Shown here: positions 1,892 to 20,069 of the stretch, in pieces
Layout of the letters: the number at the start of each line of letters is the position of its first letter
Position numbering within the stretch: the stretch's first letter is position 1
Origin: Herbaspirillum rhizosphaerae
GTDB taxonomy: Bacteria; Pseudomonadota; Gammaproteobacteria; Burkholderiales; Burkholderiaceae_D
Assembly: GCF_001189965.1 (NCBI RefSeq)
Contig: NZ_LFLU01000001.1
Location: forward strand, 1-64,000
Reading direction: 5' to 3'
DNA: 64,000 nt
The notes under the pieces: generated by a model
What the model was told of the DNA's origin: nothing
The model's database searches: none
Seen by the model: only the letters and a program-made list of their open reading frames with translations
Program-made: the position numbers and the translations under genes

Positions 1892-2659
1892 ATGAGACTG
1901 CTCACCACTCCAGCAGATGCTAACCTGAGTTCTTCCAAACTGTCACTGAGCCTTGCCAGCACGCCTGAAGAAGTGCGTGAAGTCCAACGACTGCGCTACA
2001 AAGTCTTCATCGAATCGATGAACCTGTCTGCCCTGGCCAATGCCGAAGGCCTGGACAAGGATGAGTTCGACGACTACTGCGACCACCTGATCGTACGCGA
2101 CAACAAGACCCTGAGCGTGGTCGGCACCTACCGCGTCATGAGCCCGCATGCTGCACGCCGCATGGGCAAATTCTACTCGGAACAGGAATTCGACCTGAGC
2201 CGCCTCGACAATATCCGCAACGCCATCTGCGAAGCCGGCCGCGCCTGCATCCATCCGGATTACCGCAGCGGCGCCGTCATCATGCTGCTGTGGGCCGGCA
2301 TTGCCGACTTCATGCGCAAGGAACGTTGCGACTACCTGATGGGTTGCGCCAGCGTCAGCCTGGCCGACGGCGGCCACAACGCAGCGGCGCTGTACCATGC
2401 CTTCCGCGAAAACAACATGGCGCCGCAGGAATACAGCGTCACGCCGCATACGGCATTTCCGATCGAAGAACGCGAAGCCGGCCACCAGCCGCAAGTGCCG
2501 CCGCTGCTGCGCGGCTACCTGCGCAGCGGCGCATGGGTCTGCGGCGAACCGGCCTGGGATCCTGATTTCCACTCTGCCGATTTCTTCCTGCTGCTGCCGC
2601 TGGCCAAGCTCGACGGCCGGTATGCCAAACACTACCTGAAAGAAACGAGAGCCGCATGA
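1892..2659 (+). CDS. OlsB-like N-acyltransferase (GNAT superfamily, Acetyltransf_5 type)
   Basis: The 255-residue product belongs to the OlsB/putative haemolysin branch of the GNAT superfamily. Typical features are an early VQRLRYKVF segment, the central EAGRACIHPDYR block, and the C-terminal PPLLRGYLRSGAWVCGEPAW block followed by DPDF. OlsB transfers a 3-hydroxyacyl chain from acyl carrier protein to the alpha-amino group of ornithine, making lyso-ornithine lipid. Start: an upstream in-frame TTG (1868) exists, but AAAGGA lies just before the ATG at 1892, which I prefer. The stop overlaps the next gene (ATGA), so translation is probably coupled. No OlsA partner is in the window, so the product may be a lyso-lipid or a different N-acyl amino acid. 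Confidence 0.75.
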   Translation: MRLLTTPADANLSSSKLSLSLASTPEEVREVQRLRYKVFIESMNLSALANAEGLDKDEFDDYCDHLIVRDNKTLSVVGTYRVMSPHAARRMGKFYSEQEFDLSRLDNIRNAICEAGRACIHPDYRSGAVIMLLWAGIADFMRKERCDYLMGCASVSLADGGHNAAALYHAFRENNMAPQEYSVTPHTAFPIEEREAGHQPQVPPLLRGYLRSGAWVCGEPAWDPDFHSADFFLLLPLAKLDGRYAKHYLKETRAA

Positions 2660-3516
2660 AACCACGCGATCAGTTTCTGGATGACGACGGCGTCGAAGCC
2701 GCTCTGGGAATGAAACGCGATCCCCTCCGTTTCAGGACGATCTGGATCTCCGACGTGCATCTCGGCACGACGGGGTGCCAGGCGCAAAGACTGCTTGAGT
2801 TTCTGCGCGCGACCGAATCGGAGACGCTCTATCTGGTGGGCGACATCATCGACGGCTGGCAGTTGAAGCGTCGCTGGTATTGGGAACAAAGCCACAACAA
2901 CGTCGTGCAGACGGTGCTCAAGAAAGCCAAGAAGGGCACCAACGTCATCTTCGTGCCGGGCAACCACGACGAAGTCATCCGTCAGTTCATCGACCTCGAC
3001 TTCGGCGGCATCAAGATCCGCGACGAACTGATCCATACCACCGCCAACGGCAAGCGCATGCTGGTGATCCATGGCGACCGTTTCGACGGCGTCATCGCCT
3101 GCGCCAAGTGGCTGGCCTATGTCGGCGACAACCTGTACACCATGATCCTCAAGTTCAACCAGTGGTTCAACAGCTGGCGTGCGCGTGCAGGATTGCCTTA
3201 CTGGTCCTTGTCGCAATACCTCAAGGGCAAGGTCAAGAACGCGGTCAATTACATCACCTCGTTCGAAGACGCACTGGCCGCCGAAGCCCACAAAAAGGGA
3301 CTCGACGGCGTGATCTGCGGACATATCCACAAACCGGAAATCCGCGACATCAACGGTATCAAGTATTGCAACGACGGCGATTGGGTGGAAAGCCTTTCGG
3401 CCCTGGTCGAAGATCCTTCGGGCGAATTGCGCCTGGTGACCTGGGGCGAAATCATGCAGTTGAAGAAAAGCTCGAAATTAGCCGGAGTAGAAGATTTATG
3501 CGCATTGCCATCGTAA
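2656..3516 (+). CDS. PlcP-like calcineurin-type metallophosphoesterase (usually labelled UDP-2,3-diacylglucosamine diphosphatase family)
   Basis: This 286-residue metallophosphoesterase shows the full metal-binding series: ISDVHLG (Asp33, His35), VGDIIDGW (Asp63), PGNHDE (Asn103, His104), IHGDRFD (His139) and CGHIHKPE (His223, His225). True LpxH enzymes carry GNRDF rather than GNHDE, and the segments WYWEQSHNNVVQ and CAKWLAYVGDN resemble the alphaproteobacterial PlcP group as I recall it. PlcP is a phospholipase C that releases diacylglycerol from phospholipids under phosphate starvation. The gene overlaps the acyltransferase by 4 bases and the glycosyltransferase by 19, so it works in the same pathway. 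LpxH-like lipid A function is the main alternative. Confidence 0.7.
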   Translation: MKPRDQFLDDDGVEAALGMKRDPLRFRTIWISDVHLGTTGCQAQRLLEFLRATESETLYLVGDIIDGWQLKRRWYWEQSHNNVVQTVLKKAKKGTNVIFVPGNHDEVIRQFIDLDFGGIKIRDELIHTTANGKRMLVIHGDRFDGVIACAKWLAYVGDNLYTMILKFNQWFNSWRARAGLPYWSLSQYLKGKVKNAVNYITSFEDALAAEAHKKGLDGVICGHIHKPEIRDINGIKYCNDGDWVESLSALVEDPSGELRLVTWGEIMQLKKSSKLAGVEDLCALPS

Positions 3517-4538
3517 GCGACGCGGGCGAGCCCCAAGTCAATGGCGTAGTCAACACCCTGCGGGCGACGCGTAAGTGCCTGCAAAATAAAGGACACGAAG
3601 TACTGATGCTGGCGCCGCGCGATTTCCGCACGTTCGCCTGCCCGACTTACCCCGAAATACGGCTGGCCTACAAGCCGTATGCCAAGATTGCCGCCGCGCT
3701 GGATGCCTTCAAGCCCGATTGCATCCACATCTCGACTGAAGGCCCGATGGGCCTCGCGGCGCGCCGTTACTGCCTCAGGAACAAGCTGGATTTCACCACC
3801 GCTTATCACACGCGTTTTCCGGAATACCTGAGCGCGCGCAAGCTGCTGCCCAAGGCGCTGACCTATCGCCTGATGCGCTGGTTCCACGGACCGTCCAAGG
3901 CCATCATGGTGCCGACGCCGAAGATGAAGGAAGCGCTGGAAGAACACGGCTTCCGCAACGTGGCGCTGTGGGGCCGCGGTGTCGACACCGAACACTTCAA
4001 GCCGGCCGCGGAGGATCACGCCTGCATCGTGCGCCCGCTGTTCCTGTACGTCGGTCGTGTGGCGGTGGAAAAGAACATCGAAGCCTTCCTCAAGCTGGAA
4101 TTGCCCGGTTCCAAATGGGTCATCGGCGACGGCCCGCAACGCGAAGAACTGGAACAGCGCTATCCGCATGTCCGCTTCCTCGGCGCCAAGGGCCATGACG
4201 AATTGCCAGCGTATTACAACTGCGCCGACGTGTTCGTCTTCCCGAGCCGCACCGATACCTTCGGCCTGGTGCTGGCCGAGGCCATGGCGTGCGGGGTGCC
4301 GGTTGCAGCCTATCCGGTCGAGGGGCCGATCGACGTGGTCTCCAACGGTTTTTCCGGCGCCTTGCACGACGATCTGGACGTGGCCTGCATGGATGCCTTG
4401 CATCTGTCGCGCGACGACGTGCGGGCCCATGCCATGACCTACTCGTGGGACGCCGCCACCCAGCAATTCCTGCAGCATCTGCATTACGCCCGCAGTGCCG
4501 CGCCGGCAGGTCTTGCGGATGTGGTGGATGCGGCCTGA
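3498..4538 (+). CDS. GT4-family glycosyltransferase (Agt/MgtA-like)
   Basis: The 346-residue protein has a two-domain GT-B fold: an N-terminal start MRIAIVSDAGEPQVNGVVNT with the glycine-rich acceptor loop, and a C-terminal donor domain with LFLYVGRVAVEKN and the E-x7-E-like segment DTFGLVLAEAMACGVP. This is typical of glycosyltransferases acting on diacylglycerol, phosphatidylinositol or similar lipids. The start chosen (ATG 3498) lies 19 bases inside the preceding phosphoesterase gene. Context suggests that diacylglycerol released by the PlcP-like enzyme is its acceptor, giving a glycolipid that replaces phospholipid. The sugar donor cannot be told. A strong terminator follows, closing a three-gene operon. 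Confidence 0.75.
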   Translation: MRIAIVSDAGEPQVNGVVNTLRATRKCLQNKGHEVLMLAPRDFRTFACPTYPEIRLAYKPYAKIAAALDAFKPDCIHISTEGPMGLAARRYCLRNKLDFTTAYHTRFPEYLSARKLLPKALTYRLMRWFHGPSKAIMVPTPKMKEALEEHGFRNVALWGRGVDTEHFKPAAEDHACIVRPLFLYVGRVAVEKNIEAFLKLELPGSKWVIGDGPQREELEQRYPHVRFLGAKGHDELPAYYNCADVFVFPSRTDTFGLVLAEAMACGVPVAAYPVEGPIDVVSNGFSGALHDDLDVACMDALHLSRDDVRAHAMTYSWDAATQQFLQHLHYARSAAPAGLADVVDAA

Positions 4539-4618: not shown

Positions 4619-4889
4619 CTGTGTTGTTTTACCAACGGCGGGAAAACTTCCAATTCCCCCGTCAACACCGTTTTTCTCCTCCTGTTTCCCTCTTGCGTTT
4701 CCTTGTCAAACCGCACGCCCCTGTCCGTATGCATCGGTATGGTTCTTGCGTCTTTTTACCCTGAGCAAATTTATTTGCAATAACGCCGTTCCGGTATAAA
4801 ACATGATGAGGGTTCGCCAATGCGCATGCGGTGCGCTGGCGCCTTGAGTTGCCGGCGCGGTGCCTTGGGGAAATGAAAAGGGGGAAGAA
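4619..4889 (+). other. intergenic region upstream of the first chemoreceptor
   Basis: About 270 non-coding bases. The notable features are a perfect small palindrome, GCAAAT-TT-ATTTGC (4765-4778), and a TATAAA (4795-4800) that could be a -10 element. No convincing -35 or sigma-28 motif was found, so promoter assignment is weak. Confidence 0.35.
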
Positions 4890-7019
4890 ATGAGAAACCT
4901 GTTTGCCAGTCTCCAACTGTGGAAAAAATTCGCCCTGCTGGGCGTGATCGGCATCGTGTTGTTCGGGGTGCCGACGGCGCTCTACATCAGCAGCGCAGAA
5001 GGCATCATTGCGCACAAGCAATTGGAAATCAAAGGCGTCAATCCGGCGCGCGCATTGTTGCGCACCATGCAGCTCATGCAACAGCACCGCGGCATGTCCG
5101 CCGTGCTGATCGGCGGCAATGCCGGCGTCGCCCCTCAACGCCAGGCCAAGGCGCAGGAGGTGGATAAAGCCTGGCAGGTCTTGTTTGACGAACTCAGGAA
5201 AAACGGCGTGCGCGATCCGGCGATCGAAAAGGGATTGACGGCGGTGCAGACTGCCTGGAACGGATTGCGCGACGGCGTCGCCGGCGGGCAAGTGACGGGA
5301 CCGCAGAGCTTCAATACGCACAGCGACCAGATCGCCAGGCTGTTCGAGATCAACGATCTGATACTGGACGATTTCAAACTCAGCCTGGATGCCGATCTGG
5401 ACAGCTCCAAGCTGATCACGGGGGCGTTTGTCGCGTTCCCCTTGCTGACCGAAGAGCTTGGCAAGATGCGTGCGCGCGGCTCCGCAATGCTCGCCAAAAA
5501 GGCGGTTACGCCGGACGACAAGCTGGCGATCATCCGCCCCAGTCAACGCGGGCAGGAACGATTGAGGCAGGCCGACAAACTGTTCCAGCAAGCCTTCCTG
5601 ATCAACGCCTCGCTCAGGGACAGCCTGGGCGGTACGGTGGACAATGCGCGCAAACTGGCGCTCGGCGCGATCGCGCTGGCGGATGAAAAAGTGCTGAAGC
5701 CGGAGGCATTGGAGTTTCCGCCGCAAGAGTATTTCGCCCGATTCACCGAAGCCATCGATGCGCAATTCAAAGTCGTCGATGTCGTGATCGGCAGCCTGGA
5801 AAGCACCCTCGGCCAGCAGACTGCGCAGATGCGCCGCAATGAAATCTGGGTGCTGGGCTGCATCAGTGCGCTGGCCTTGTTTGCCGCGTGGATCGGCACC
5901 ATGCTGTCGCGCTCGATCACGGTGCCGATGTCGGAATCGGTGAGCATGGCGCAACGCGTCGCCTCCTGCGACCTGACGTCGCGCGCCGTCGTGGTCGGCA
6001 GCGACGAATCGGCGCAGCTGTTGCACGCGCTCAACGACATGACCGGCAGCCTGGTGCATATCGTCGGCGATGTGCGCACCAGCATCGACGTGATTCACGT
6101 GGCGTCGAAAGAAATCGCCATGGGCAATGCCGACTTGTCCAATCGCACCGAGTCGCAGGCGTCGAGCCTGGAACAAACCGCCAGCTCGATGGAAGAGCTG
6201 ACTTCCACTGTACGGCAAAATGCCGACAACGCGCGCCAGGCCAACTCCCTGGTCACGACGGCATCGGAACTGGCGGTCAAGGGCGGCGAGGTCGTCGGCA
6301 ATGTGGTGCACACCATGGGCTCCATTAAAGAGAGTTCCAGCAAGATCGTCGACATCATCAGCGTGATCGACGGTATCGCGTTCCAGACCAATATCCTCGC
6401 GCTCAATGCTGCAGTGGAAGCGGCGCGTGCGGGTGAGCAGGGCAGAGGTTTCGCAGTCGTCGCCAGCGAGGTGCGCAGCCTGGCGCAACGCTCGGCATCG
6501 GCCGCCAAGGAGATCAAGGAACTCATCAGCGATTCGGTCGGCAAGGTCGATGCCGGCGGCAAGCTGGTCGACGAAGCCGGCGCGACCATGGGCGAAATCG
6601 TGACCTCGGTCAAGCACGTGGCCGACATCATGAGCGAGATCACCGCCGCCAGTCAGGAGCAAAGCGTCGGCATCGAAGAAGTCAATCGCGCCATCACGCA
6701 CATGGATGAAATCACGCAACAAAATGCGGCTTTGGTGGAGCAGGCCGCCGCCGCTGCCGAGAGCTTGCAGGAGCAGGCCGACATCCTTGCGCAGACGGTC
6801 AGCGTGTTCAAGATCACGCCGGCCGAGCGCCATGCAGCGACGCCGGGTATGCCTCTCCCACCGGTTCAAGCCGCCAGGCGCCTGAGCGTCGTCGGCAAAC
6901 CGGCGACGCAGAAAAAGGCCGCTGCGCCGGCCTTGAAAGTCTTGTCCAAGCCTGCCGCGAAAACCACCGTCAAGCCGGCGGAAAGCGCGGGCAATGCGAA
7001 TGACTGGGAAGAGTTCTGA
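4890..7019 (+). CDS. methyl-accepting chemotaxis protein with large periplasmic helical sensor
   Basis: This 709-residue chemoreceptor has a first membrane helix at about residues 13-34, a roughly 300-residue periplasmic region, a second helix near 320-340 ([16 protein letters not shown]), a HAMP domain and a C-terminal signalling domain. The hairpin tip [20 protein letters not shown] is canonical. The periplasmic segment [15 protein letters not shown] resembles the start of NIT-type (nitrate/nitrite-sensing) helical domains, but the ligand is unknown. The protein ends NDWEEF, a WxxF tail like the NWETF tether that binds the CheR methyltransferase in enteric receptors. The ATG at 4890 is preceded by AAAAGGGGGA; an upstream in-frame GTG has no such site. 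It is first of three tandem receptor genes. Confidence 0.9.
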
Positions 7020-7516
7020 GCGATCTCCGGTGTTGTTCGGCAACGGCATGCGCGAGGGAAGAATGATGTTGTTTCATCATCTTTCCTTGCGCTGTAATTG
7101 AGCGCCACACGGGCGTTTCGGAAGATTATGCGAAAACGGTATAGTTGCATGCGCACAAAGCATTAGCCTAGTGTTAGTCCCTTATCTAAGATTCGCCCAC
7201 GGGTCATTATTGAATGAAATGGTCAGTGGGCATTTGCCGCGAGCGGAGGTACGATCGCGCAATGTATATCCTCTCCAGCCATCCCAAAGAAGAGACGTGA
7301 GCGCATCGGCTGCCGCGTCTTTTTTCATTTCTTCAATCGATTTTAATTGCCCTGCAACAAGAAAAATAAGTGCGGAACACGTACAATCAAACGTATTGCG
7401 CGCAGGCACGAATCCTGCTGAGAATCACGTAACAGGGCATCCGCCGACGATGTGGATGGTCTGACAAGTTGCACCTTCAGGGACGGCAGTTTTTTATCAG
7501 GGGAAGTTGAGTGGTT
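7020..7516 (+). other. 497-base intergenic region between two chemoreceptor genes
   Basis: No gene is convincing here on either strand. There is an imperfect hairpin at 7057-7086 just past the first receptor gene (GGAAGAATGATG against CATCATCTTTCC, two mismatches, no T-run), and a separate terminator-like hairpin at 7293-7325. Between them, TTGCAT (about 7145) with TAGTGT 18 bases downstream could be a weak promoter, so a short independent transcript is possible but unproven. Confidence 0.4.
7293..7325 (+). terminator. orphan terminator-like hairpin
   Basis: AGACG (7293-7297) and CGTCT (7316-7320) close a stem that contains a second short AGC/GCT pairing, and it is followed by a run of T. 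It lies about 270 bases beyond the preceding gene and 190 bases before the next, so it ends either a long 3' tail or an unannotated small RNA. Confidence 0.45.
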
Positions 7517-9244
7517 ATGATCTCGAATATCAAAATTGGTGCGCGCCTTGCACTAGGATTCTGTCTCGTCTTGTTCTGTGCTGCGGCGATTTTGTTCAAT
7601 GGTCTGTGGCGCATGAGCGAAATGGGCGCCAGCAGCGAGTACATCATCAACCAGAAGGTCGCCAGCATGACGGCGGCGATGAGCATGCGCGAATCGGGCA
7701 GTGCTCTGGCGCTCGCGTTGCGCAAGGTGGTCACGCCGACCGACGCTGCTGAAGGCCAGCAGGAAAATCAACGCCTGACCAAGATCCTGCAAGCCTATGC
7801 CGGTTTCGAAGGACAACTCACCAAGCTGACATCGACGGACAAGGGCAAGGCCTTGCTCGCATCTTCGACGGCCGAGCGCAAGGTGCTGTTTCCCATCGTC
7901 GAGAAGATTCGCGAGATGGTCGGCGGCGGCAACTACTTCGATGCGGCGCAATTGCTTAAGAGCGATTTCCTGCCGGCCTATGATAAATGGATGGCCAGCG
8001 TCGGCGCGCTGGCGAGCTATCAGCAGGACGACATGTCGACCGCTTACGTTGCCTTTCAGGCAAGTTACCACACCGGTCAGGTCAGCATGGTCATCATCGG
8101 TATCGTGACCCTGGCGCTGGGCGCTTTCTTCACCTGGTCGATTACCCGCGCCATCACTGCACCATTGCAACGCGCCGGCAGAATCACCGAGACCATCGCC
8201 AGCGGCGACCTCACCACAACAGTGGAAGAGAAGAGCCACGATGAAGCAGGCCAACTGGTGCATTCGCTCAATGCCATGCAGACCAAGCTGGCCTCGACTG
8301 TGAACGAGATCAAGCAAAGCGCTGCGATCATCGCGGTGGCGTCGCAAGAGATCGCCACCGGCAACGCCGACTTGTCCAACCGCACCGAATCGCAGGCCTC
8401 CAGCCTGGAAGAAACCGCCAGCTCGATGGAACAACTGACATCGACCGTGAAGCAGAATGCCGAGAACGCGCATCAGGCCAATCAACTGGTCATGTCGGCG
8501 TCCGACTATGCGGTCAAGGGCGGCAAGGTGGTCGGCGACGTGGTGGCAACCATGGGTTCGATCAAGGCCAGTTCCAGCAAGATCGTCGACATCATCGGCG
8601 TGATCGATGGTATCGCCTTCCAGACCAACATCCTGGCGCTGAACGCCGCTGTCGAAGCAGCACGCGCTGGTGAACAAGGCCGCGGCTTTGCCGTGGTGGC
8701 GTCCGAAGTGCGCAGCCTGGCGCAGCGTTCCGCTTCCGCCGCCAAGGAAATCAAGATCCTCATCGGCGACTCCGTCAGCAAGGTTGATGCCGGCGGCAAG
8801 CTGGTCGACGAAGCCGGCGTGACCATGAGCGAAATCGTGACCTCGGTCAAGCACGTGGCCGATATCATGGGCGAGATCACCGCCGCCAGCAAAGAGCAGA
8901 GCGCCGGCATCGCCGAAGTCAACAACGCCATTTCGCAGATTGACGAAATCACGCAGCAGAACGCCGCGCTGGTGGAGCAGGCTGCCGCTGCCGCCGAAAG
9001 CCTGCAGGAGCAAGCCGATCTGCTGGCGCGCGCGGTTGCAGTGTTCAAGGTCGATGGCGCGGTAATCGCTGCGCAGGGCGCCCCGGCAACGGTAGTGCCG
9101 TCGATGCTGAAGACGGTCAATCCTCCGCTGGAGTTGCAGGCCGAGCCTGCGGCCAGGCCGGTTGCGGCGCGCAAGAAGATTGCGCCTGTCGCGCCGAAGA
9201 AAATGACCGCATCGCAAGACGAAGGAAGCTGGGAAGAATTCTGA
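7517..9244 (+). CDS. methyl-accepting chemotaxis protein (four-helix-bundle sensor)
   Basis: This 575-residue receptor begins [15 protein letters not shown] with the first membrane helix at about 8-30. A compact periplasmic domain of about 160 residues has the size of a 4HB sensor; the second membrane helix is near 190-210 ([17 protein letters not shown]), followed by HAMP ([13 protein letters not shown]) and the standard signalling domain with [20 protein letters not shown]. It ends GSWEEF, again a WxxF receptor-modification tether. Start choice: GTG at 7511 and ATG at 7517 are both in frame; GGGGAAG lies upstream and suits either, and I chose the ATG. A strong terminator follows at 9322. 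The ligand is unknown. Confidence 0.9.
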
Positions 9245-9321
9245 TGCCCGTCCTCGCGTAACGGCGAGGTCACAATCCTCATTTAATCTGCGTTTGTCGT
9301 CACTGTCATGGCGACGCAGGC

Positions 9322-9355
9322 AAAGCCCGCAGGCCTCCCGGCCTGCGGGCTTTTT
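9322..9355 (+). terminator. rho-independent terminator after the second chemoreceptor
   Basis: AAAGCCCGCAGGCC (9322-9335) pairs perfectly with GGCCTGCGGGCTTT (9340-9353) across a TCCC loop and runs into further T. It shows the third receptor gene needs its own promoter. Confidence 0.92.
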
Positions 9356-9443
9356 AACAAATTGCGCCGGTAATGTCCCATGGGCAATACCTCTGCACCG
9401 GATTCACCACATACAAGCCATAACTTTCTTCAAAGGTAGAAAC

Positions 9444-11246
9444 ATGTTCTTTTCCACTTTGCGTATGCGTCTGATCGCCCTGTGCGTATCGGTTGTCGTG
9501 CTGGCGATGCTTGCCATCATCGGCGCCAATTTCCTGACGAGCAAATCGCGCATGATGGACTCGCTCGACAGCCAGACGCGCCAGCTGTCGGACAGCCACG
9601 CCGCCACCATTGCAGAATGGGTGGCGTCGAAGAAATCGGTGGTGACGTCCATCAAGCTGGCGGTCGATGCGCCCGAGCCGCTGGCGTTCGTCAAGGCGGC
9701 GGAACAGGCCGGCGGCTTTGATCTGGCCTACATCGGTTATGCCGACAAGCACACTGTCTTCTCGCAGGAACGCACGCGTGCGCCGGATTATGATCCGACC
9801 AAGCGCTCCTGGTATACGCTGGCCTCGCAGGTGGCCGGTCCGGTGGTGACTTCGCCTTACACCAGCGCCAGCACCGGCCGGCTGCTGGTGACCTTTGCCG
9901 AAGCCATCGGCGCGACCGGGCAGACCACAGCCGTGGCGGCAGCGGACGTGTTGCTCGACACCGTGGTGCGCACCATCGTGGCGATCAAGCCGACGCCGGC
10001 GAGCTACGCCTTTCTGGTCGACAGCAAGGGCAAGATCATCGCCCATCCCGACACCAAGCTGACCCTCAAGCCGATCGCCGATCTGGACAAGGACCTGTCG
10101 GTGCAGACGCTGGCGGAAATCGAAAGCACGCGTCAGAGCAAGCAAATCCGCCTGAACGACCGCGACGGCATGCTCTATGTTTCCAAAGTTGCCGGCACCG
10201 ACTGGCTGCTGGTGGTGGTGCTCGATCGCGCCGACGCCACCTCGCCGCTCAAGGCCATGCTGGGATCCTCGGCCGCGACCGCACTGGTGGTGACGGCGCT
10301 GGTCTGCCTGCTGCTGAGCGTGCTGATCGCCAAGGCCTTGCAGCGCCTGGCGCTGGTGCGCAATGCGCTGGGTGAAATCGCGGTCGGCGACGGCGACCTG
10401 ACGCGGCGCCTGGATGCCAATGGCAAGGATGAACTGGCGCAGATCGGCCTGGCGTTCAATCAGTTCGTCGACAAGATCTCGGCGGTGCTGCTCGACATCC
10501 GCAAGGCCAGCGACACCATCAAGGACGCGTCGCGCGAGATCGCCGACGGCAACAGCGACTTGTCCGCGCGCACCGAAGCGCAAGCCGGCTCGCTGGAAGA
10601 AACCGCCTCCGCCATGGAAGAGCTGACTGCCGGCGTCAAGAACAATGCCGACAATGCGCACGAAGCCAATCTGCTGGTTGCCTCCGCCTCCGACATTGCG
10701 GTCCGCGGCGGCGACATGGTCGGCCAGGTGGTCGACACCATGGGTGCGATCAACGAGTCGTCGAAGAAGATTGTCGACATCATCAGCGTGATCGACGGCA
10801 TCGCTTTCCAGACCAATATCCTCGCCCTGAATGCGGCTGTGGAAGCGGCGCGCGCCGGTGAGCAGGGCCGCGGCTTTGCCGTGGTGGCGTCGGAAGTGCG
10901 CAGCCTGGCGCAGCGTTCGGCCACGGCCGCCAAGGAGATCAAGGTGCTGATCGGCGACTCGGTGGTGCAAGTCGAGCAGGGCAGCCAACTGGTGGAGCAG
11001 GCCGGTGCGACGATTCGCGAAGTGGTCGACAGCGTCAAGCGCGTGAGCGAAGTCGTGGCGGAAATCAGCGCCGCCAGCCGCGAGCAAAGCCAGGGCATCA
11101 ACCAGACTAACCAGGCAATCACGCAGATGGATGAAACCACGCAGCAGAACGCGGCGCTGGTGGAGCAAGCGGCAGCAGGTGCGCAATCCCTGCAGGAGCA
11201 GGCGATCCGCCTGGCCGGTGCGGTGAGTTCGTTCAGATTGAACTGA
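9444..11246 (+). CDS. methyl-accepting chemotaxis protein with dCache-type sensor
   Basis: This 600-residue receptor has a membrane helix at about 7-29, a periplasmic region of about 250 residues with double-Cache hallmarks ([13 protein letters not shown], then [20 protein letters not shown]), a second helix near 275-300, HAMP, and the conserved signalling domain. dCache_1 domains commonly bind amino acids, polyamines or organic acids directly in the periplasm. Unlike the neighbouring receptors it ends SSFRLN, without a WxxF tether, so it may depend on other receptors for efficient adaptation. AAAGGTAG precedes the ATG at 9444. A very strong bidirectional terminator separates it from the convergent sixA gene. 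Confidence 0.9.
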
Positions 11247-11361: not shown

Positions 11362-11820
11362 TTACTTGGCGATCAGATCCGGCGCCATCACTGCGCGCAG
11401 ATAGTTGGTGGTGATGTCGCCACGCTCGCGTTGGGCAATCCACCAGACGTTGGCTTTGCGGATCGACCATTCTTGCGGCATGCCGCCGATGAGTTGCGCC
11501 GCGACCAGCCCCAGCGTCGGCTGATGGCCGATGACCAGCACCGGCTCGCGGCTGTCGGGCCAGTTGGCGGCGGCGAGCAGGTCTTCCGGCGATTTGTCCG
11601 GCGCCAGGTCGGCGTGGATCTTGAACTTGCGTCCCAGCGCTTCGGCCGTCTGCACGGTGCGGGTGGCCGGACTGACCAGGATGCGGCAGCTTTCCGGCAG
11701 GTTGCGATCGAGCCAGTCGGCCATCTTCCACGCCTGCTTGTGTCCCTTGCCGGTCAGGGCGCGACCTTCATCCGGCTCGCCCAACTCCGCTTCTGCATGA
11801 CGCCATAAAATCAGTTCCAT
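11362..11820 (-). CDS. sixA: SixA-like phosphohistidine phosphatase (histidine phosphatase superfamily)
   Basis: This 152-residue protein opens MELILWRHAEAE, the RHG/RHA catalytic motif of the phosphoglycerate-mutase-like histidine phosphatases (His8), has SPATRTVQTAEAL in mid-sequence and the second catalytic histidine in VIGHQPTLG. SixA enzymes of this length dephosphorylate phosphohistidine on phosphotransfer proteins, in E. coli the nitrogen-PTS protein. The ATG at 11820 has AGAGGCG about 8 bases upstream. It follows ppk1 by 47 bases on the same strand, so the two are probably co-transcribed. Ppk1 also works through a phosphohistidine, which makes the pairing interesting, but a direct link is inference. 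Confidence 0.8.
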   Translation of the reverse strand: MELILWRHAEAELGEPDEGRALTGKGHKQAWKMADWLDRNLPESCRILVSPATRTVQTAEALGRKFKIHADLAPDKSPEDLLAAANWPDSREPVLVIGHQPTLGLVAAQLIGGMPQEWSIRKANVWWIAQRERGDITTNYLRAVMAPDLIAK

Positions 11821-11867
11821 GGGGAATCGCCTCTGGTTGATTGGTGGATTCTGCTCAATTGGGACCG

Positions 11868-13979
11868 TCATTCCTCGACCAGCGGCGCGGCGATGCCGAG
11901 CGTATTCATCAGATAGGCCTGGGCGCTGAATGCGGCCTGGCGCGAGCTTGCCTTTTTGAGTACGTAAACGCCGTCGCAGTTCAAATGCCATGCATTGGTG
12001 TTGTCTTTCAGGTAAGGATCGAGTCCTTCGCTGATGATGCGCTTCTTGAGCGCCTTGTCCAGGATCGGGAAGGCGACTTCAATGCGGCGGAACAGATTGC
12101 GGTTCATCCAGTCGGCGCTCGACAGATAGACGTCGTGGGCCAGGTCGTTGCGGAAATAATAGATGCGCGAGTGTTCCAGATAGCGGCCGATCACCGAGCG
12201 CACGCGGATATTTTCCGACAGGCCTGCCACGCCGGGACGCAGCGCGCAGGCGCCGCGCACGATCAGGTCGATCTTCACGCCGTCGGCCGAAGCGGCATAC
12301 AGCGCGCGGATCACCGACTCGTCCAGCAGCGCGTTCATCTTGGCGATGATGCGGGCCGGGCGGCCTTCGCGCGCGATCAGCGCCTCGTTGCGGATGGCGC
12401 GGATGATTTCCTTTTGCAGCGAGAACGGCGCCAGCCACAGATGGTTCAGGGTGCGCGGCTTGGTCAGCGTGGTCAGGTGGATGAAGACCTCGTTGACTTC
12501 GGCGGTCAGTTCGCGGTGCGAGGTCAGCAGGCCGAAATCGGTATAGAACTTGGTCGTCGTCGGGTGATAGTTGCCGGTGCCGAGGTGGGCATAGAAGTGC
12601 AGGGCGTCGTCTTCGCGGCGGATCACCAGTGCGATCTTGGCGTGGGTCTTGAGGCCGACCACGCCGTACACGACTTGCGCGCCGGCCTGCTCCAGCTTCA
12701 CGGCCCAGTTGATGTTGGCTTCTTCGTCGAAGCGCGCCATCAGTTCGACGATGACGGTGACTTCCTTGCCGCGCTGGGCGGCATGGATCAGCGCTTCCAT
12801 CAGGTCGGAGTTCATGCCGGTGCGGTAAATCGTTTGCTTGATCGCCACCACGTTCGGGTCGTGCGCTGCGGTGCGGATGAAATCCACCACCGGCTGGAAC
12901 GACTGGAACGGATGATGCAGCAGCACGTCGCGCTTTTTCAGCACGGCGAAGATGTTTTCGTTCTGCAGGTTCGGCGGCAACGTCGGCGAAAACGGCGGGA
13001 AGCGCAGCGCCGGCACCGACGCCAGGTCGACCAGCTCGGACAGGCGCACCAGATTCACCGGACCCTTGACCGCATACAGGCGGTTGCGCTCGATGAAGAA
13101 CTGATTCAGCAGGAACTGCGCCAGATGCTCCGGGCAGTTGCTGGCCACTTCCAGACGCACGCCGACGCCGAACTGGCGGCTTTGCAATTCGGTCTGCAAG
13201 GCCTGGCGCAGGTTCTTGACTTCTTCTTCATCCACCCACAGGTCGCTGTTGCGCGTGACACGGAACTGCGAATAGGCGACGATCTCGCGGCCTGTAAATA
13301 ATTCCGCAATATGCGCGTGGATCACCGACGACAGCAGGCAGAACGACACGCCTTTCTGGTCCGACAGGCCGTCAGGCAGGCGGATCACGCGCGGCAGCAC
13401 ACGCGGCGCCTTGACGATGGCGATCGCCGTGCCGCGGCCGAAGGCGTCCTTGCCGGACAGCTCGATGATGAAGTTCAGACTCTTGTTCAGCACCTGCGGG
13501 AAAGGGTGGGCCGGATCGAGGCCGATCGGCGTCAGCAGCGGGCGCACGTTCTGTTCGAAATACTGCTTGACCCAGGCGCGCTGGGCGTCGTTGCGGTCTT
13601 CGTGACGCAGCAGGTGGATGCCTTTGTTGGCCAACTGCGGCAGGATTTCCTTGTTCAGCAATTCGTACTGACGCGCCACGATCTGGTGACATTCGATGCT
13701 GGTGCGTTCCAGCGCGGCGCTCAGTTCGGGCGGGTCGATGTGCTCGCCTTCGATGCGGTTGGCCAGCAGGCTGGCGATGCGGACTTCAAAGAATTCGTCG
13801 AGGTTGCTGCTGCAGATGCACAAATAGCGCAGGCGCTCGAGCAAGGGAATCTGCTTGTTTTCCGCCTGGGCCAGAACGCGGCGGTTGAACGCCAATTGTG
13901 ACAGTTCGCGGTTGAGATAAATGGCGGTCGGATTGATTTCTGTGTGAGCGCTATCTTCCGGCTTTGTTTTTCTGGTCAT
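11868..13979 (-). CDS. ppk1: polyphosphate kinase 1
   Basis: This 703-residue enzyme polymerises the gamma-phosphate of ATP into polyphosphate. It matches the usual Ppk1 length and order: N domain (YLNRELSQLAFNRRVLAQAE at about 21-40, CSSNLDEFFEVR), head domain, and phospholipase-D-like catalytic domains with the autophosphorylated histidine in GLKTHAK (His446). AGGAATAACGC precedes the ATG. Upstream, a Pho box on the minus strand (14029-14046) lies 10 bases from a TACACT -10 element, so expression should rise when PhoB is active. It is divergent from pstS, and sixA follows it. No exopolyphosphatase (ppx) is in the window. Confidence 0.95.
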   Translation of the reverse strand: MTRKTKPEDSAHTEINPTAIYLNRELSQLAFNRRVLAQAENKQIPLLERLRYLCICSSNLDEFFEVRIASLLANRIEGEHIDPPELSAALERTSIECHQIVARQYELLNKEILPQLANKGIHLLRHEDRNDAQRAWVKQYFEQNVRPLLTPIGLDPAHPFPQVLNKSLNFIIELSGKDAFGRGTAIAIVKAPRVLPRVIRLPDGLSDQKGVSFCLLSSVIHAHIAELFTGREIVAYSQFRVTRNSDLWVDEEEVKNLRQALQTELQSRQFGVGVRLEVASNCPEHLAQFLLNQFFIERNRLYAVKGPVNLVRLSELVDLASVPALRFPPFSPTLPPNLQNENIFAVLKKRDVLLHHPFQSFQPVVDFIRTAAHDPNVVAIKQTIYRTGMNSDLMEALIHAAQRGKEVTVIVELMARFDEEANINWAVKLEQAGAQVVYGVVGLKTHAKIALVIRREDDALHFYAHLGTGNYHPTTTKFYTDFGLLTSHRELTAEVNEVFIHLTTLTKPRTLNHLWLAPFSLQKEIIRAIRNEALIAREGRPARIIAKMNALLDESVIRALYAASADGVKIDLIVRGACALRPGVAGLSENIRVRSVIGRYLEHSRIYYFRNDLAHDVYLSSADWMNRNLFRRIEVAFPILDKALKKRIISEGLDPYLKDNTNAWHLNCDGVYVLKKASSRQAAFSAQAYLMNTLGIAAPLVEE

Positions 13980-14028: not shown

Positions 14029-14046
14029 ATGACAAGTTAATGACAA
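14029..14046 (-). promoter_or_regulatory. Pho box in the ppk1 promoter
   Basis: Read on the minus strand the site is TTGTCATTAACTTGTCAT: two GTCA half-sites at exactly 11-base spacing, close to the Pho-box consensus. A -10-like TACACT (14018-14013) follows 10 bases downstream, placing the box at the -35 position, as in PhoB-activated promoters. The implied leader to the ppk1 ATG is about 27 bases. Confidence 0.75.
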
Positions 14047-14351: not shown

Positions 14352-15401
14352 ATGGGGTTTAATCACATTCTTAAATCTGTTGCGGTAGCAGTGTGCGGCA
14401 CGGTCGCGTTTTCTGCAGCAGCACATGCAGCAGAAATCACCGGCGCTGGCGCATCGTTCCCGTATCCGATTTACGCCAAATGGGCAGAATCGTACAAGGC
14501 TGCTACCGGTAACAGCCTGAACTACCAATCCATCGGTTCCGGTGGCGGCATCAAGCAAATCAAGGCAAAGACTGTTGACTTCGGCGCCTCCGATGCTCCG
14601 CTGTCGCAAGCTGAGCTCGACGCTGACGGCTTGACACAATTCCCGGCAGTGGTCGGCGGCGTTGTGCCAGTCATCAACCTCGACGGTACTACTCCAGGCC
14701 AGGTCAAGCTGTCCGGTCAAGTGCTGGGCGACATCTACTCGGGCAAGATCACCAAGTGGAATGCTCCTGAAATCGCAGCGCTGAACGCAGGCGTCAAGCT
14801 GCCGGCAGAAGACATCACCGTGGTCTACCGTTCCGACGGTTCGGGCACATCGTTCGTGTTCACCAGCTACCTGTCGAAGGCTAACGCCGACTTCAAGTCC
14901 AAGATCGGCGCAGGCACAGCAGTCAAGTGGCCGGTCGGCGTGGGCGGCAAGGGTAACGAAGGCGTTGCAGCCAACGTGCAAAAGGTCAAGGGCGCAATCG
15001 GCTACGTCGAATACGCTTACGTCAAGAAGAACAAGCTGAACTACACCCAGCTGAAGAACAAGGACGGCACTTTCGTGTCGCCTGACGACGCGACATTCAA
15101 GGCAGCGACTGCTGCTGCCGACTGGGCCAAGACGCCAGGTTTCGCAGTTGACTTCACTGATGCAGCCGGCAAGAACAGCTGGCCTATCAGCAGCGCAACC
15201 TTCATCCTGCTGCACAAGGCGCAAGCTGCCGACGGCGCCAAGGGCAAGGAAGTCCTGAAGTTCTTCGACTGGGCCTACAAGAACGGCGGCGCTGCTGCTG
15301 CCGATCTGGACTACGTGCCACTGCCAGCATCGGTCACCAAGCTGGTTGAAGATTCCTGGAAAGCCAATGTCAAGGACAGCTCCGGCAAGGCAATCTGGTA
15401 A
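14352..15401 (+). CDS. pstS: periplasmic phosphate-binding protein
   Basis: This 349-residue binding protein has a signal peptide ending AAAHA (cleavage after about residue 26), giving a mature start AEITGAGASFPYPIY. The phosphate-contact loops are visible: GAGASFP, GSGGGIKQIK, FGASDAPLS and YRSDGSGTSFVFTSYL. It captures inorganic phosphate in the periplasm and passes it to PstCA. AGGAGC precedes the ATG. It heads pstS-pstC-pstA-pstB-phoU-phoB-phoR, the arrangement usual in Burkholderiales, and an upstream Pho box supports PhoB control. Codons here appear strongly biased, fitting high expression under starvation. Confidence 0.97.
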   Translation: MGFNHILKSVAVAVCGTVAFSAAAHAAEITGAGASFPYPIYAKWAESYKAATGNSLNYQSIGSGGGIKQIKAKTVDFGASDAPLSQAELDADGLTQFPAVVGGVVPVINLDGTTPGQVKLSGQVLGDIYSGKITKWNAPEIAALNAGVKLPAEDITVVYRSDGSGTSFVFTSYLSKANADFKSKIGAGTAVKWPVGVGGKGNEGVAANVQKVKGAIGYVEYAYVKKNKLNYTQLKNKDGTFVSPDDATFKAATAAADWAKTPGFAVDFTDAAGKNSWPISSATFILLHKAQAADGAKGKEVLKFFDWAYKNGGAAAADLDYVPLPASVTKLVEDSWKANVKDSSGKAIW

Positions 15402-15422
15402 TCAGTATTCAGTACTGCCCCG

Positions 15423-15502
15423 GGTACGCCCAAGCGGCGTACCAAATGTGCAATAACTGAAACAAGGCAGGGCTGCGGCAGACCATCCGGTCTTCGCAGC
15501 CC
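15423..15502 (+). other. two intercistronic hairpins between pstS and pstC
   Basis: GGTACGCC (15423-15430) pairs with GGCGTACC (15436-15443), and GGGCTGCG (15470-15477) with CGCAGCCC (15495-15502); the second contains an inner GACC/GGTC stem. Neither has a T-run. Such structures often stabilise the upstream transcript or partly terminate it, which would let PstS be made in excess over the membrane components. The second ends only about 10 bases before the pstC ribosome-binding site. Confidence 0.6.
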
Positions 15503-15522
15503 GCTACTAAATGGTGAAAACA

Positions 15523-16557
15523 ATGAGCTCAAACATCTCTGCCACGACCATGTCGAACACCGATCTAGGTAAGCCTCCCGTAGATACGTCTGCGCAGCAA
15601 GCTCACGAAGAGCTGTTGGCAACGATGCGCAAGCAACGCATTCAAGATTTCCTCTTTCATAAAGTCACGCTGATCTTCGCATTGTCGGTATTGCTGATGC
15701 TCGGCGGGATTATTGTCTCCCTCTTTATCGGCGCCTGGCCGGCCTTCCACGAATTTGGCCCCGGCTTCATCACGCGCGTGGAGTGGGATCCGGTCAATGA
15801 CCAATACGGCGCAGCGATCGCCATCGTCGGTACGCTGTCCACTTCGCTGATCGCGCTGCTGATCGCTTTCCCGGTCAGCTTCGGCATCGCACTGTTCCTC
15901 ACTGAAATCTGCCCGAGCCGCCTGCGTCGTCCGCTCGGCACCGCAGTCGAACTGCTGGCCGGCGTGCCCAGCATCATCTACGGTATGTGGGGTTTGTTCG
16001 TGTTCGCGCCGCTGTTTGCGGAATACGGCCAGCCCCTCCTGAAAGCCACCATCGGCCAGCTGCCGGTGATCGGCGCCTTGTTCCAGGGCCCGACCATGGG
16101 TATCGGCATCATGACCGCCGGCCTGATTCTGTCGGTCATGATCATCCCGTTCATCGCGTCCGTGATGCGCGACGTGTTCGAAGTCGTGCCGGCCGTGTTG
16201 AAAGAATCCGCTTACGGCCTCGGCTGTACCCGTTGGGAAGTGGTGCGCAAGGTGGTGCTGCCTTACACCAAGACCGGCGTGGTCGGCGGCGTCATGCTCG
16301 GCCTCGGTCGCGCACTCGGTGAAACGATGGCGGTCACTTTCGTGATCGGCAACTCGCACCGTCTGTCGTGGTCGCTGTTCGCCGCCGGCAACAGTATCGC
16401 TTCCACACTCGCCAATGAAATCGCCGAAGCCTCGTCGAAGCTGCACGTTTCGTCGCTCTTCGCACTCGGTCTGATCCTGTTCGTGATCACCTTCATCGTG
16501 CTGTCCGCGGCGAAGATCATGTTGATGGGCATGACACGCAAGGAAGGTGCAAAATAA
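15523..16557 (+). CDS. pstC: phosphate ABC transporter permease PstC
   Basis: This 344-residue membrane protein has a roughly 60-residue cytoplasmic N-terminus, then six predicted helices (the first about [19 protein letters not shown]), and the ABC permease EAA loop [20 protein letters not shown]. Together with PstA it forms the inner-membrane channel of the high-affinity phosphate transporter. Two in-frame ATGs exist (15511 and 15523); GGTGA lies five bases before the second, which I prefer. The stop TAA shares its last base with the pstA ATG, so translation is coupled. Confidence 0.95.
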
Positions 16558-17483
16558 TGAATCAACCTGTCAATCAAAATGCCGCGCCGGCCCAGGCAAC
16601 ACAAGCAGCACACGCCAAGCCGGAAATCAATTCGCCGATGAACCCGGTGTATCGCCGCCGCCTGCTGCAACATCGCATCGGCATGCTGTTCTCTTTCCTG
16701 GCGATGGCAGCCGGCCTGGTGGTTCTGGCCTGGATTCTGCTGACGCTGGTGATCAAGGGTTTCAGCGCGATCAACATCGGCATGCTCACGCAAAACACCC
16801 CATCGCCAGGCGGCGACGGCGGCGGCCTGCTCAACCCTATCATCGGCAGTCTGATGATGGTCGGCGTCGGTACCCTGATCAGCACGCCGATCGGCATCCT
16901 GGCCGGCATCTACCTGGCTGAGTACGGCGAAGAGAGCAAGCTGGCGCAGACCACGCGTTTCGTTACCGACATCATGCTGTCGGCGCCATCGATCGTCATC
17001 GGTCTGTTCGTCTACGCGATCTACGTCGCCAACGTCGGCCACTTCTCCGGCTGGGCCGGCACCTTCGCGATCTCGCTGATTGCGATCCCGGTGGTGGTGC
17101 GTACGACCGACAACATGTTGAAGCTGGTGCCGAGCAGCCTGCGCGAAGCGGCATTCTCGCTCGGCGCGCCGCGCTGGAAGGTCGCCATGCTGGTGCGTCT
17201 GCGCGCGGTCAAGGCCGGCGTCGTGACCGGCGTGCTGCTGGCGGTGGCGCGTATTTCCGGTGAAACGGCGCCGCTGCTGTTCACTGCGCTCAACAACCAG
17301 TTCTTCAGCACCAACATGAATCAGCCGATCGCCAACTTGCCGGTGGTGATCAATCAGTTCGCCATGAGTCCTTACGACAACTGGGTCGCACTTGCATGGG
17401 GCGGCGCCTTGCTGATTACCTTCAGCGTGCTTGCCCTGAACATCCTGTCCCGAACCATGTTTAGCCAGCGCGTTCCAGGCTAA
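16557..17483 (+). CDS. pstA: phosphate ABC transporter permease PstA
   Basis: This 308-residue permease has a first helix at about 42-65, the PstA-specific GGDGGGLLNPIIGSL region, and the EAA loop REAAFSLGAPRWKVAMLVRL. It partners PstC in the inner membrane and docks on the PstB ATPase. The start overlaps the pstC stop by one base (TAATG). The order and spacing match the conserved pst operon. Confidence 0.95.
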   Translation: MNQPVNQNAAPAQATQAAHAKPEINSPMNPVYRRRLLQHRIGMLFSFLAMAAGLVVLAWILLTLVIKGFSAINIGMLTQNTPSPGGDGGGLLNPIIGSLMMVGVGTLISTPIGILAGIYLAEYGEESKLAQTTRFVTDIMLSAPSIVIGLFVYAIYVANVGHFSGWAGTFAISLIAIPVVVRTTDNMLKLVPSSLREAAFSLGAPRWKVAMLVRLRAVKAGVVTGVLLAVARISGETAPLLFTALNNQFFSTNMNQPIANLPVVINQFAMSPYDNWVALAWGGALLITFSVLALNILSRTMFSQRVPG

Positions 17484-17534
17484 GAAACAAGCGATCCCAG
17501 CGAATCCAGATAAGTGAATCGACAAGAGAACACT

Positions 17535-18320
17535 ATGACTACTCAGACATCCGCAACTGCAGACAAGAAATCGACCATTGAAATTTCTCAGCTGAATTTC
17601 TACTACGGCGGTTTTCACGGCCTGAAGAACATCAACATGAACATCTTCGAAGGCAAGGTCACCGCCTTCATCGGCCCGTCGGGCTGCGGCAAATCGACGC
17701 TGCTGCGCACCTTCAATCGCATGTATGACCTGTATCCGGGCCAGCGCGCCGAAGGCAAGATCATGTACGCCGGCAAGAACATCCTCGAGCCGGGCCAGGA
17801 CTTGAACATGCTGCGCGCCAAGGTCGGCATGGTGTTCCAGAAGCCGACACCGTTTCCGATGTCGGTCTACGACAATATCGCCTTCGGTATCCGTCTGTAT
17901 GAAAACCTGCCCAAGGGCGAAATGGACGAGCGCGTCGAATGGGCGCTCAACAAGGCGGCATTGTGGGGCGAAGTCAAGGACAAGCTGAACAAGAGCGGCC
18001 TGTCCCTCTCGGGCGGTCAGCAACAACGCCTGTGCATCGCCCGCGGCGTCGCGGTCAAGCCGGAAGTGCTGCTGCTGGACGAGCCGACATCGGCGCTGGA
18101 TCCGATCTCGACCGCCAAGGTGGAAGAGCTGATCGGCGAGCTGAAGAACGACTACACCATCGCCATCGTCACGCACAACATGCAACAAGCGGCGCGCTGC
18201 TCGGATTACACCGCCTATATGTACCTGGGCGAATTGATGGAATTCGGCGAGACCGACCAGATTTTCATGAATCCGGCGCGCAAGGAAACCCAAGACTACA
18301 TTACCGGTCGTTTCGGCTAA
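17535..18320 (+). CDS. pstB: phosphate ABC transporter ATP-binding protein
   Basis: This 261-residue ATPase shows Walker [10 protein letters not shown], the signature [14 protein letters not shown], Walker [14 protein letters not shown] and the switch histidine in IVTHNMQQ, as in PstB. It powers phosphate uptake by PstCA and relays transport status to PhoU/PhoR. An in-frame GTG at 17514 is possible, but the ATG at 17535 gives the usual N-terminus. It is followed not directly by phoU but by a 123-base palindrome, which is unusual in this tightly packed operon. Confidence 0.96.
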
Positions 18321-18443
18321 TTGAATCATTGTCTCGGCTACTGCGCGACGCGATTTTGCGTCTGCGATGCTCACCGTACCTCCGTACGGCTGCGCTTCTC
18401 GACGCAAACTCACGCCGCTCGCTACGCCGATACAACGATTCAA
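18321..18443. repeat. long imperfect palindrome inside the pst-pho operon
   Basis: The 123 bases directly after the pstB stop form a whole-length imperfect inverted repeat. The ends TTGAATC and GATTCAA match, then TTGT/ACAA and TCGGC/GCCGA, continuing inward to a perfect central hairpin CCGTAC-CTCC-GTACGG (18374-18389) centred on 18382, the centre of the whole element. It has no coding potential that I can support. It looks like a dispersed intergenic palindrome of a kind common in Oxalobacteraceae; it could trim expression of phoU-phoB-phoR relative to pst. Confidence 0.75.
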
Positions 18444-18514
18444 GGGCAGTTGATGAGTTCTCCTGCCACGGCTTTTGAAGTCATTTAATTTACAAAATTT
18501 TTTAAGGACGTGAC

Positions 18515-19225: not shown

Positions 19226-19263
19226 GCCGGCGTTTCCTTGACAAATCCAGATAGCGCGACTCC

Positions 19264-19941: not shown

Positions 19942-20069
19942 CAAAAAAGATACACGCAGGCAGGCGCGACCCCTCTGGAGACATTGGGAACCCCGAAAGA
20001 CCTCTATACTGGATGCTCAATTGTCGTCGCGACAATCGGGTCAACCTGATTCTGAATAATGAGTTTTAC

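Follow-up and report, generated by a model that had tools for sequence, protein, structure and literature searches.

Near the start of contig NZ_LFLU01000001.1 of Herbaspirillum rhizosphaerae, three overlapping genes raise the question of whether they act together to exchange phospholipids for lipids that contain no phosphorus. We analyzed positions 1 to 64,000 of the contig, a stretch of 64,000 nucleotides that we call the window, and followed up an initial annotation that had read the genes as a cassette for phosphorus-sparing lipid remodelling. The genes and the site in front of them are as follows.

1826 to 1843, + strand: predicted PhoB box GTGTCATttccCTGAAAT, agreeing with the consensus at 11 of 14 positions and located 66 bases ahead of the first start codon
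1892 to 2659, + strand: OlsB-family N-acyltransferase, first step of ornithine-type lipid synthesis (Pfam, NCBIfam, alignments, tree)
2656 to 3516, + strand: PlcP-type phospholipase C, a calcineurin-like metallophosphoesterase predicted to release diacylglycerol (alignments, tree, motif)
3498 to 4538, + strand: predicted Agt-type GT4 diacylglycerol glycosyltransferase (Pfam, alignments, Agt1 search)

The overlaps are exactly those that had been claimed, 4 bases (ATGA, 2656-2659) and 19 bases (3498-3516), and the three genes are probably translationally coupled. Pfam finds an Acetyltransf_5 domain in the first protein, a calcineurin-like phosphoesterase in the second, and a GT4/GT1 glycosyltransferase in the third. 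Judged by their sequences, the genes are thus an OlsB-family, a PlcP-type, and an Agt-type GT4 gene, as the initial annotation had proposed. We consider it very probable that they form a PhoB-controlled operon that replaces membrane phospholipids by phosphorus-free lipids. The observed basis is the gene order, the overlaps, the protein families, a separate lpxH and a separate olsA in the genome, the conservation of the operon, the exchange of GT4 for GT28 in relatives, and a conserved Pho box.

In the mechanism that we propose, low phosphate would lead PhoB to turn the operon on. OlsB would acylate an amino acid, ornithine being the likeliest, with a 3-hydroxy fatty acid. Ornithine lipid would then result from attachment of the second acyl chain by OlsA, whose gene lies elsewhere, behind pyrC. 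Going by orthologues of proven function, PlcP would remove the phosphate head group of phospholipids, yielding diacylglycerol and a phosphorylated head group that can be salvaged, and the GT4 enzyme would attach a sugar (glucose or glucuronate in known relatives) to the diacylglycerol to form a glycolipid.

We assign the middle protein to PlcP and not to LpxH. Its local identity is 54% to PlcP of Pseudomonas aeruginosa and 47% to PlcP of Sinorhizobium meliloti but 21% to Escherichia coli LpxH; the P. aeruginosa reference for the PlcP and glycosyltransferase identities is a plasmid-borne copy of the PA3219-PA3218-type locus (L041). On two NCBIfam LpxH models, with cut-offs of 134 and 190 bits (the second being TIGR01854), it scores weakly, 53.0 and 46.5 bits, and PlcP of the P. 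aeruginosa PA3219-type locus is equally low (55.1 and 44.5 bits), with S. meliloti PlcP at 38.1 and 38.9 bits. A genuine lpxH lies elsewhere in the genome (L009, G000:C34) and scores 294 and 262 bits, the latter on TIGR01854. When the genome is queried with P. aeruginosa PlcP, the window gene is the best match (E 2.3e-92), while E. coli LpxH finds L009 (E 4.8e-61). Phylogeny agrees with the claimed resemblance to PlcP: one branch, with a support of 100 in the Shimodaira-Hasegawa-like approximate likelihood ratio test (SH-aLRT), splits 62 PlcP-type from 13 LpxH rows, and the window protein groups with the PlcPs of proven function (75 rows, quick search; of 29 further PlcP loci from the genus, 5 were kept). 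The protein carries GNHDE in place of GNRDF, as had been noticed from the sequence, and in an 18-row alignment GNHD is present in all 16 PlcP-type rows and GNRD in both LpxH rows. We reject an LpxH identity of the middle gene on the basis of the tree, the separate lpxH, and the model scores. In the PlcP alignment, D33 is nearly invariant and H35, D63, N103, H139, H223, and H225 are invariant; we take these residues to be the metal ligands of the metallophosphoesterase. The warning that standard annotation hides such a system proved correct, since in the records used both plcP of P. aeruginosa and plcP of S. meliloti appear as "UDP-2,3-diacylglucosamine diphosphatase".

The two reference loci were identified by their neighbors. 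We take L040 to be S. meliloti plcP (SMc00171) from the adjacent acyl-homoserine-lactone synthase and LuxR regulator genes (sinI/sinR), and L041 to be the PA3219-PA3218 locus from its gene order and an adenylate/guanylate cyclase neighbor (PA3217 being cyaB). Their PlcPs are 46.6% identical, consistent with the 46% printed for PA3219 (PMC8528852). As an observation on the records themselves, CP090106.1 (L040, L090) is named S. meliloti "pSymB" and is 3.7 Mb long, carries the acyl-homoserine-lactone synthase/LuxR genes, plcP, olsB, mutS, and lspA, and looks like a mislabelled chromosome. The plcP-agt1 stretch occurs in three P. aeruginosa plasmid records (NZ_CP137508.1, CP075839.1, and NZ_CP042268.1), and the one inspected looks chromosome-derived.

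The first gene had been called OlsB-like, and reciprocal matches, gene context, and a tree (see below) support its membership of the OlsB family, with ornithine the most likely substrate. Its counterparts in Herbaspirillum sp. CF444 and Herbaspirillum autotrophicum share 99% and 91% identity with it, respectively. It scores 124 bits on PF13444, the OlsB-like GNAT domain, and its best NCBIfam models are two OlsB models, NF052555 (154 bits) and NF052554 (152 bits). It is 46% identical to an OlsB from Kitasatospora whose gene overlaps an olsA and 30% identical to S. meliloti OlsB. OlsB relatives of about 50% identity adjoin olsA in 9 of 16 OlsB-centred loci. A sequence-only search of the PDB gave weak matches, with an acyl-homoserine-lactone synthase the best. 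The genome also holds four PF01553 acyltransferases, one of which (L098, G000:C14:45785-46591) is a candidate OlsA. On the OlsA models L098 reaches 122 and 108 bits, compared with at most 55 for the other three. Its best match is the paired olsA in all nine genomes with an olsBA pair, and its gene lies 15 bases behind a dihydroorotase gene (pyrC). From this orthology and these scores we conclude that the second enzyme is probably present and encoded apart.

Some points speak against ornithine lipid as the product. Gene 1 falls under the curated OlsB cut-offs (154 against 320 bits, and 152 against 350), L098 is below the OlsA cut-off of 300, and gene 1 could use another amino acid. However, the NCBIfam OlsB models are narrow: of seven further OlsBs, two (S. 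meliloti and Paracoccus) reach a cut-off, and the remaining five, four of them with olsA adjacent, get 128 to 186 bits. The olsA beside olsB in another genome (G048) is likewise under 300, at 133 and 124 bits. An alternative in which PlcP and GT4 act as proposed but gene 1 makes another aminolipid (for example, of lysine, glutamine, or glycine) or a diffusible N-acyl amino acid would fit the sub-threshold scores, the 30% identity to S. meliloti OlsB, and the fact that relatives of gene 1 in the Oxalobacteraceae are not beside olsA. We regard it as unlikely, in view of the OlsA orthologue kept in the genome, the equally low scores of OlsBs from other olsBA loci, and 47% identity to a Streptomyces relative of SCO0921 type, SCO0921 itself being outside the comparison. 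Streptomyces coelicolor SCO0921 is required for ornithine lipid (PMC4686642). We also observed a second, divergent OlsB-like gene, with 36% identity, in one same-genus genome (L065, G009).

Ornithine lipid synthesis remains the preferred role of gene 1. For the conservation of the cassette, the gene maps of relatives rest on tblastn. Of 34 same-genus genomes, 31 carry all three genes together, although the OlsB match is split in two in one of them (G006; assembly error or decay). The exceptions are a PlcP fragment at a contig end with GT4 behind it (G017), a genome with only a broken GT4 fragment (G003), and a 63% complete genome in which no cassette gene was found (G027). Such linkage is conservation far beyond chance. 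In a survey of 145 genomes of the family (E ≤ 1e-30), PlcP was found in 76 and OlsB in 108. In 48 of these 76 genomes OlsB lies directly upstream of PlcP (gap of at most 100 bases), and in 13 more it is no farther than 10 kb away. These counts, and those for a set of 80 named loci, were tallied by hand from result tables; the two sets overlap partly (L143, for example, is G035), so that their counts are not additive.

Among the 80 named loci, olsB is followed directly by plcP in 24, and what comes next varies. It is GT4 in six (Herbaspirillum, Collimonas, Oxalicibacterium, and one metagenome-assembled genome [MAG]), a GT28 gene of the monogalactosyldiacylglycerol (MGDG) synthase type in eight (Herminiimonas and Oxalobacteraceae or Burkholderiales genomes or MAGs), and neither glycosyltransferase in the stretch covered in ten (Undibacterium, Glaciimonas, and others, one of them ending at a contig edge). 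The GT28 gene takes the GT4 position in L113, L114, L078, L130, and L115, the last (G180) carrying both. A GT28 motif stands beside plcP in 8 survey loci, Pfam MGDG_synth was found in all five tested (83 to 92 bits), and tblastn places GT28 next to plcP in 10 of the 80 named loci, partly in the same genomes as the motif set. Other arrangements add a diacylglycerol kinase gene, dgkA: plcP-GT4-dgkA-sixA-olsB in six loci from other family members (L121 to L126; Pfam confirmed dgkA in 3/3 and sixA in 2/2 tested), plcP-GT4-dgkA-olsB in Polynucleobacter (dgkA by Pfam), and olsA-olsB-GT4-dgkA-GT4-plcP in 4 of the 80 loci, two from Sulfuritalea and two from other betaproteobacterial MAGs. As a separate observation, this six-gene cluster (L195, L202, L207, and L211) is apparently a complete phosphorus-free lipid set with two glycosyltransferases.

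Several features of this distribution weigh against our reading of the operon. Among the 76 PlcP genomes are 13 whose OlsB is distant or on a separate contig and 2 that give no OlsB match. In Undibacterium and Glaciimonas, olsB-plcP has no recognized glycosyltransferase alongside. A query with the window glycosyltransferase in seven such genomes (six Undibacterium type, one Glaciimonas type; GT28 was not searched there) found no full-length match; partial matches were at E 1e-14 to 5e-5 in three and at 5e-4 in one, with none in the other three, and the best was 38% identical over 167 residues. In G034 (L050), olsB adjoins GT4 and the genome has no PlcP match, and Janthinobacterium, Duganella, and Massilia have olsB without PlcP in the stretch covered. 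These last two cases mean that the parts do not strictly need one another.

In the OlsB tree, 35 plcP-adjacent and 25 olsA-adjacent rows fall on opposite sides of a branch with support of 97, which suits a single move of olsB from olsA to plcP in the Oxalobacteraceae. The tree has 108 rows, 48 of them unlabelled, and is midpoint-rooted, with SH-aLRT supports from a quick search; four same-genus loci were kept, and most Janthinobacterium, Duganella, Massilia, Rugamonas, and Undibacterium rows and some MAGs were thinned out. L121 to L126 occupy another part of the tree, which means that at least one further lineage acquired or retained the association of olsB with plcP.

What the parts have in common is diacylglycerol, which PlcP would make and which either glycosyltransferase or the kinase would use, and this is the strongest contextual argument for their roles. 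The third gene, called a GT4 enzyme able to glycosylate the released diacylglycerol in the initial annotation, is supported as Agt-type by reciprocal matches and gene context, and its predicted product is glucosyl- or glucuronosyl-diacylglycerol. The protein is 52% identical to P. aeruginosa Agt1, the glycosyltransferase encoded after plcP. With Agt1 as the query, it is the sole match in the genome at E ≤ 0.001 (E 1.5e-106); neither at this threshold nor at E ≤ 1e-20 was a second Agt-like gene reported. In P. aeruginosa, a study of PA3219, PA3218, and PA0842 reports that phosphate-stressed mutants without plcP, agt1, or agt2 have lost monoglucosyl- and/or glucuronosyl-diacylglycerol or contain less of it (PMC8528852). 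Could the sugar acceptor be something other than PlcP-derived diacylglycerol, such as an aminolipid or a polysaccharide precursor, with the neighbors coincidental? The GT4 family is broad, the window protein matches many GT4 models weakly, and G034 retains olsB-GT4 without PlcP. We hold this to be quite improbable because Agt1 is a proven diacylglycerol glycosyltransferase (PMC8528852), an MGDG-synthase-type GT28 occupies the same position in sister genera, and the diacylglycerol kinase recurs.

Diacylglycerol glycosylation thus remains the likely role of the third gene. For the phosphate control of the operon, the consensus used, CTGTCATNNNNCTGTCAT, has 14 fixed positions and comes from a P. 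aeruginosa paper (PMC8528852). A degenerate Pho box had been noted upstream, and it is indeed present, with 11 of 14 matches at 1826-1843; a third, weaker half-site (about CGACAG) follows in an 11-base register, as judged by eye. Sites scoring at least 11 number five in the window on both strands. In 300 dinucleotide shuffles of the 200 upstream bases (+ strand), a score of 11 was reached with P = 0.007. Of 30 same-genus loci, 18 (window included) have a box scoring at least 10 between -65 and -71, and random window stretches of the same width reach a score of 10 in 123 of 20,000 draws; since the loci are related, this recurrence is no independent test. In other genera (Herminiimonas, Oxalicibacterium, and Janthinobacterium), there are three half-sites at 11-base steps, with up to 13/14 matches. 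A wider test covered the olsB upstream regions of 33 of 81 loci (the window and 80 others), hand-picked for genus spread, four of which (the window, L141, L143, and L148) had in effect already been included in the preceding box scan. A shuffle P of at most 0.05 was found for 25 of the 33, and 21 score at least 11. Loci that lack plcP (Janthinobacterium) likewise have the box in front of olsB, which makes olsB appear Pho-linked by itself, and L050 has sites with 12/14 and 11/14 matches upstream of olsB-GT4. Counting against PhoB control are the 12 of 30 same-genus loci with no good box at the usual place and the 8 of 33 loci, two of them Herbaspirillum, that miss P 0.05. Overall, these results support predicted control of the operon by PhoB, with a position of the box that is conserved with exceptions.

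The neighborhood points in the same direction and comprises the following features.

4860-7019, 7511-9244, and 9294-11246, + strand: three tandem chemoreceptor genes with NIT, 4HB, and dCache sensor domains (Pfam)
11362 to 11835, - strand: sixA-like histidine phosphatase gene (Pfam), directly beside the cassette in some relatives
11868 to 13979, - strand: ppk1, polyphosphate kinase, directly after sixA beside the cassette in some relatives
14029 to 14046, - strand: Pho-box-like site in the ppk1-pstS intergenic region, with 12/14 matches the best in the window, about 50 bases before ppk1
14352 to 21386, + strand: pstS-pstC-pstA-pstB-phoU-phoB-phoR (Pfam, including BPD_transp_1, ABC_tran, PhoU, response regulator, and PhoR)

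The stated distance of about 10 kb to ppk1/pst-pho is roughly right: it holds for pstS (9.8 kb, + strand), while ppk1 is nearer, at 7.3 kb (- strand). This gap exists because the three chemoreceptor genes (4860-11246) stand between the cassette and sixA-ppk1. The cassette abuts sixA-ppk1 in Oxalicibacterium (L149) and Undibacterium (L151 and L153 to L156) and lies within 1.5 kb of it in Herminiimonas (L143). Matches to sixA or ppk1 were found in 20 of the 80 named loci, ppx is often upstream of olsB, and on a Mitsuaria plasmid plcP is beside ppk1 and ppx. Ornithine lipids respond to other stresses too, and the box is missing at some same-genus loci, which would suit an operon for general envelope adaptation (to acid, salt, or temperature) rather than chiefly for phosphate. 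The presence of the box across genera and the physical linkage to sixA-ppk1, ppx, and pst-pho make that explanation improbable. Lastly, the idea that the middle gene is LpxH and that the cassette has a role in lipid A or another envelope glycan, which might be favored by the automatic annotation of relatives as UDP-2,3-diacylglucosamine diphosphatase, the weak but present LpxH model scores, and LpxH as the nearest solved structures by sequence, can be dismissed as extremely improbable in view of the full-scoring lpxH elsewhere, the branch that parts PlcP from LpxH, and the equally weak TIGR01854 scores of the P. aeruginosa and S. meliloti PlcPs (44.5 and 38.9 bits).

Phosphorus-sparing lipid replacement is our preferred function for the operon. 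PlcP-driven remodelling is already known from marine and rhizobial Alphaproteobacteria, Pseudomonas, and methanotrophs. The P. aeruginosa PA3219-PA3218 locus resembles the window in its overlapping PlcP and GT4 genes in the same order and its upstream Pho box (PMC8528852). However, olsBA is described as an operon there (PMC9804370) and a second glycosyltransferase, Agt2, is present, whereas in the window olsB heads the plcP-agt operon and the Agt1 search of the genome at E ≤ 0.001 reported no second match. Methylosinus trichosporium and marine Alphaproteobacteria have plcP-agt with the same enzymes and pathway (PMC9239053, PMC4796936), but in M. trichosporium olsA and olsB are named apart from plcP-agt (PMC9239053). 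With the OlsBA pathway of S. meliloti, Streptomyces, and Rhodobacter, the window shares the OlsB family (PF13444) and an OlsA candidate in the genome; it differs in that olsB is parted from olsA and joined to plcP. The GT28 diacylglycerol glucosyltransferase of the MGDG-synthase/UgtP type, which replaces GT4 in sister genera, belongs to another family and is not in the window. Pho-driven use of both PlcP and OlsBA within single organisms is known from P. aeruginosa and Pseudomonas putida (PMC9804370, PMC5082522), and M. trichosporium produces lipids of both types when phosphate is low (PMC9239053). Sebastian et al. described six plcP neighborhood types, with btaAB or glycosyltransferases (PMC4796936), and the word olsB is absent from the main text of that paper. 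In the open-access literature searched, we found no description of an olsB-plcP-agt operon and no paper on PlcP lipid remodelling in Oxalobacteraceae, Polynucleobacter, or Herbaspirillum. The enzymes are each of a known family, and as far as our searches show, what is new is the operon architecture with its natural part swaps, not the mechanism.

If this reading is correct, many soil, plant-associated, and freshwater betaproteobacteria could lower their phosphorus need by lipid replacement and would carry a gene misread in annotation as a second lipid A enzyme. The natural variants (GT28 for GT4, no glycosyltransferase, or no PlcP) offer a direct test of the rule by which one lipid substitutes for another, and since glycolipid and ornithine-lipid synthesis would share a single operon, one promoter and one deletion reach both. 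A broader picture is possible, although we offer it tentatively and with more doubt than belief: a modular, PhoB-controlled "phosphorus-free lipid island" in Betaproteobacteria with an olsB-plcP core, a glycosyltransferase slot (GT4, GT28, or none), and an optional diacylglycerol kinase. In forms without a glycosyltransferase (Undibacterium, Glaciimonas), PlcP would harvest phosphorylated head groups, diacylglycerol would be recycled, and ornithine lipid would be the sole replacement; the shared transcript would fix the ratio of destroyed to made lipid.

The chemoreceptors near the cassette possibly serve nutrient or phosphate taxis. In one other locus (L127), an open reading frame that is chemoreceptor-like by reading lies between plcP and olsB. 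On the other side of the cassette and divergent from it, a 3-hydroxybutyrate dehydrogenase gene and an acetoacetate-decarboxylase-family gene occupy 134-1666 on the - strand.

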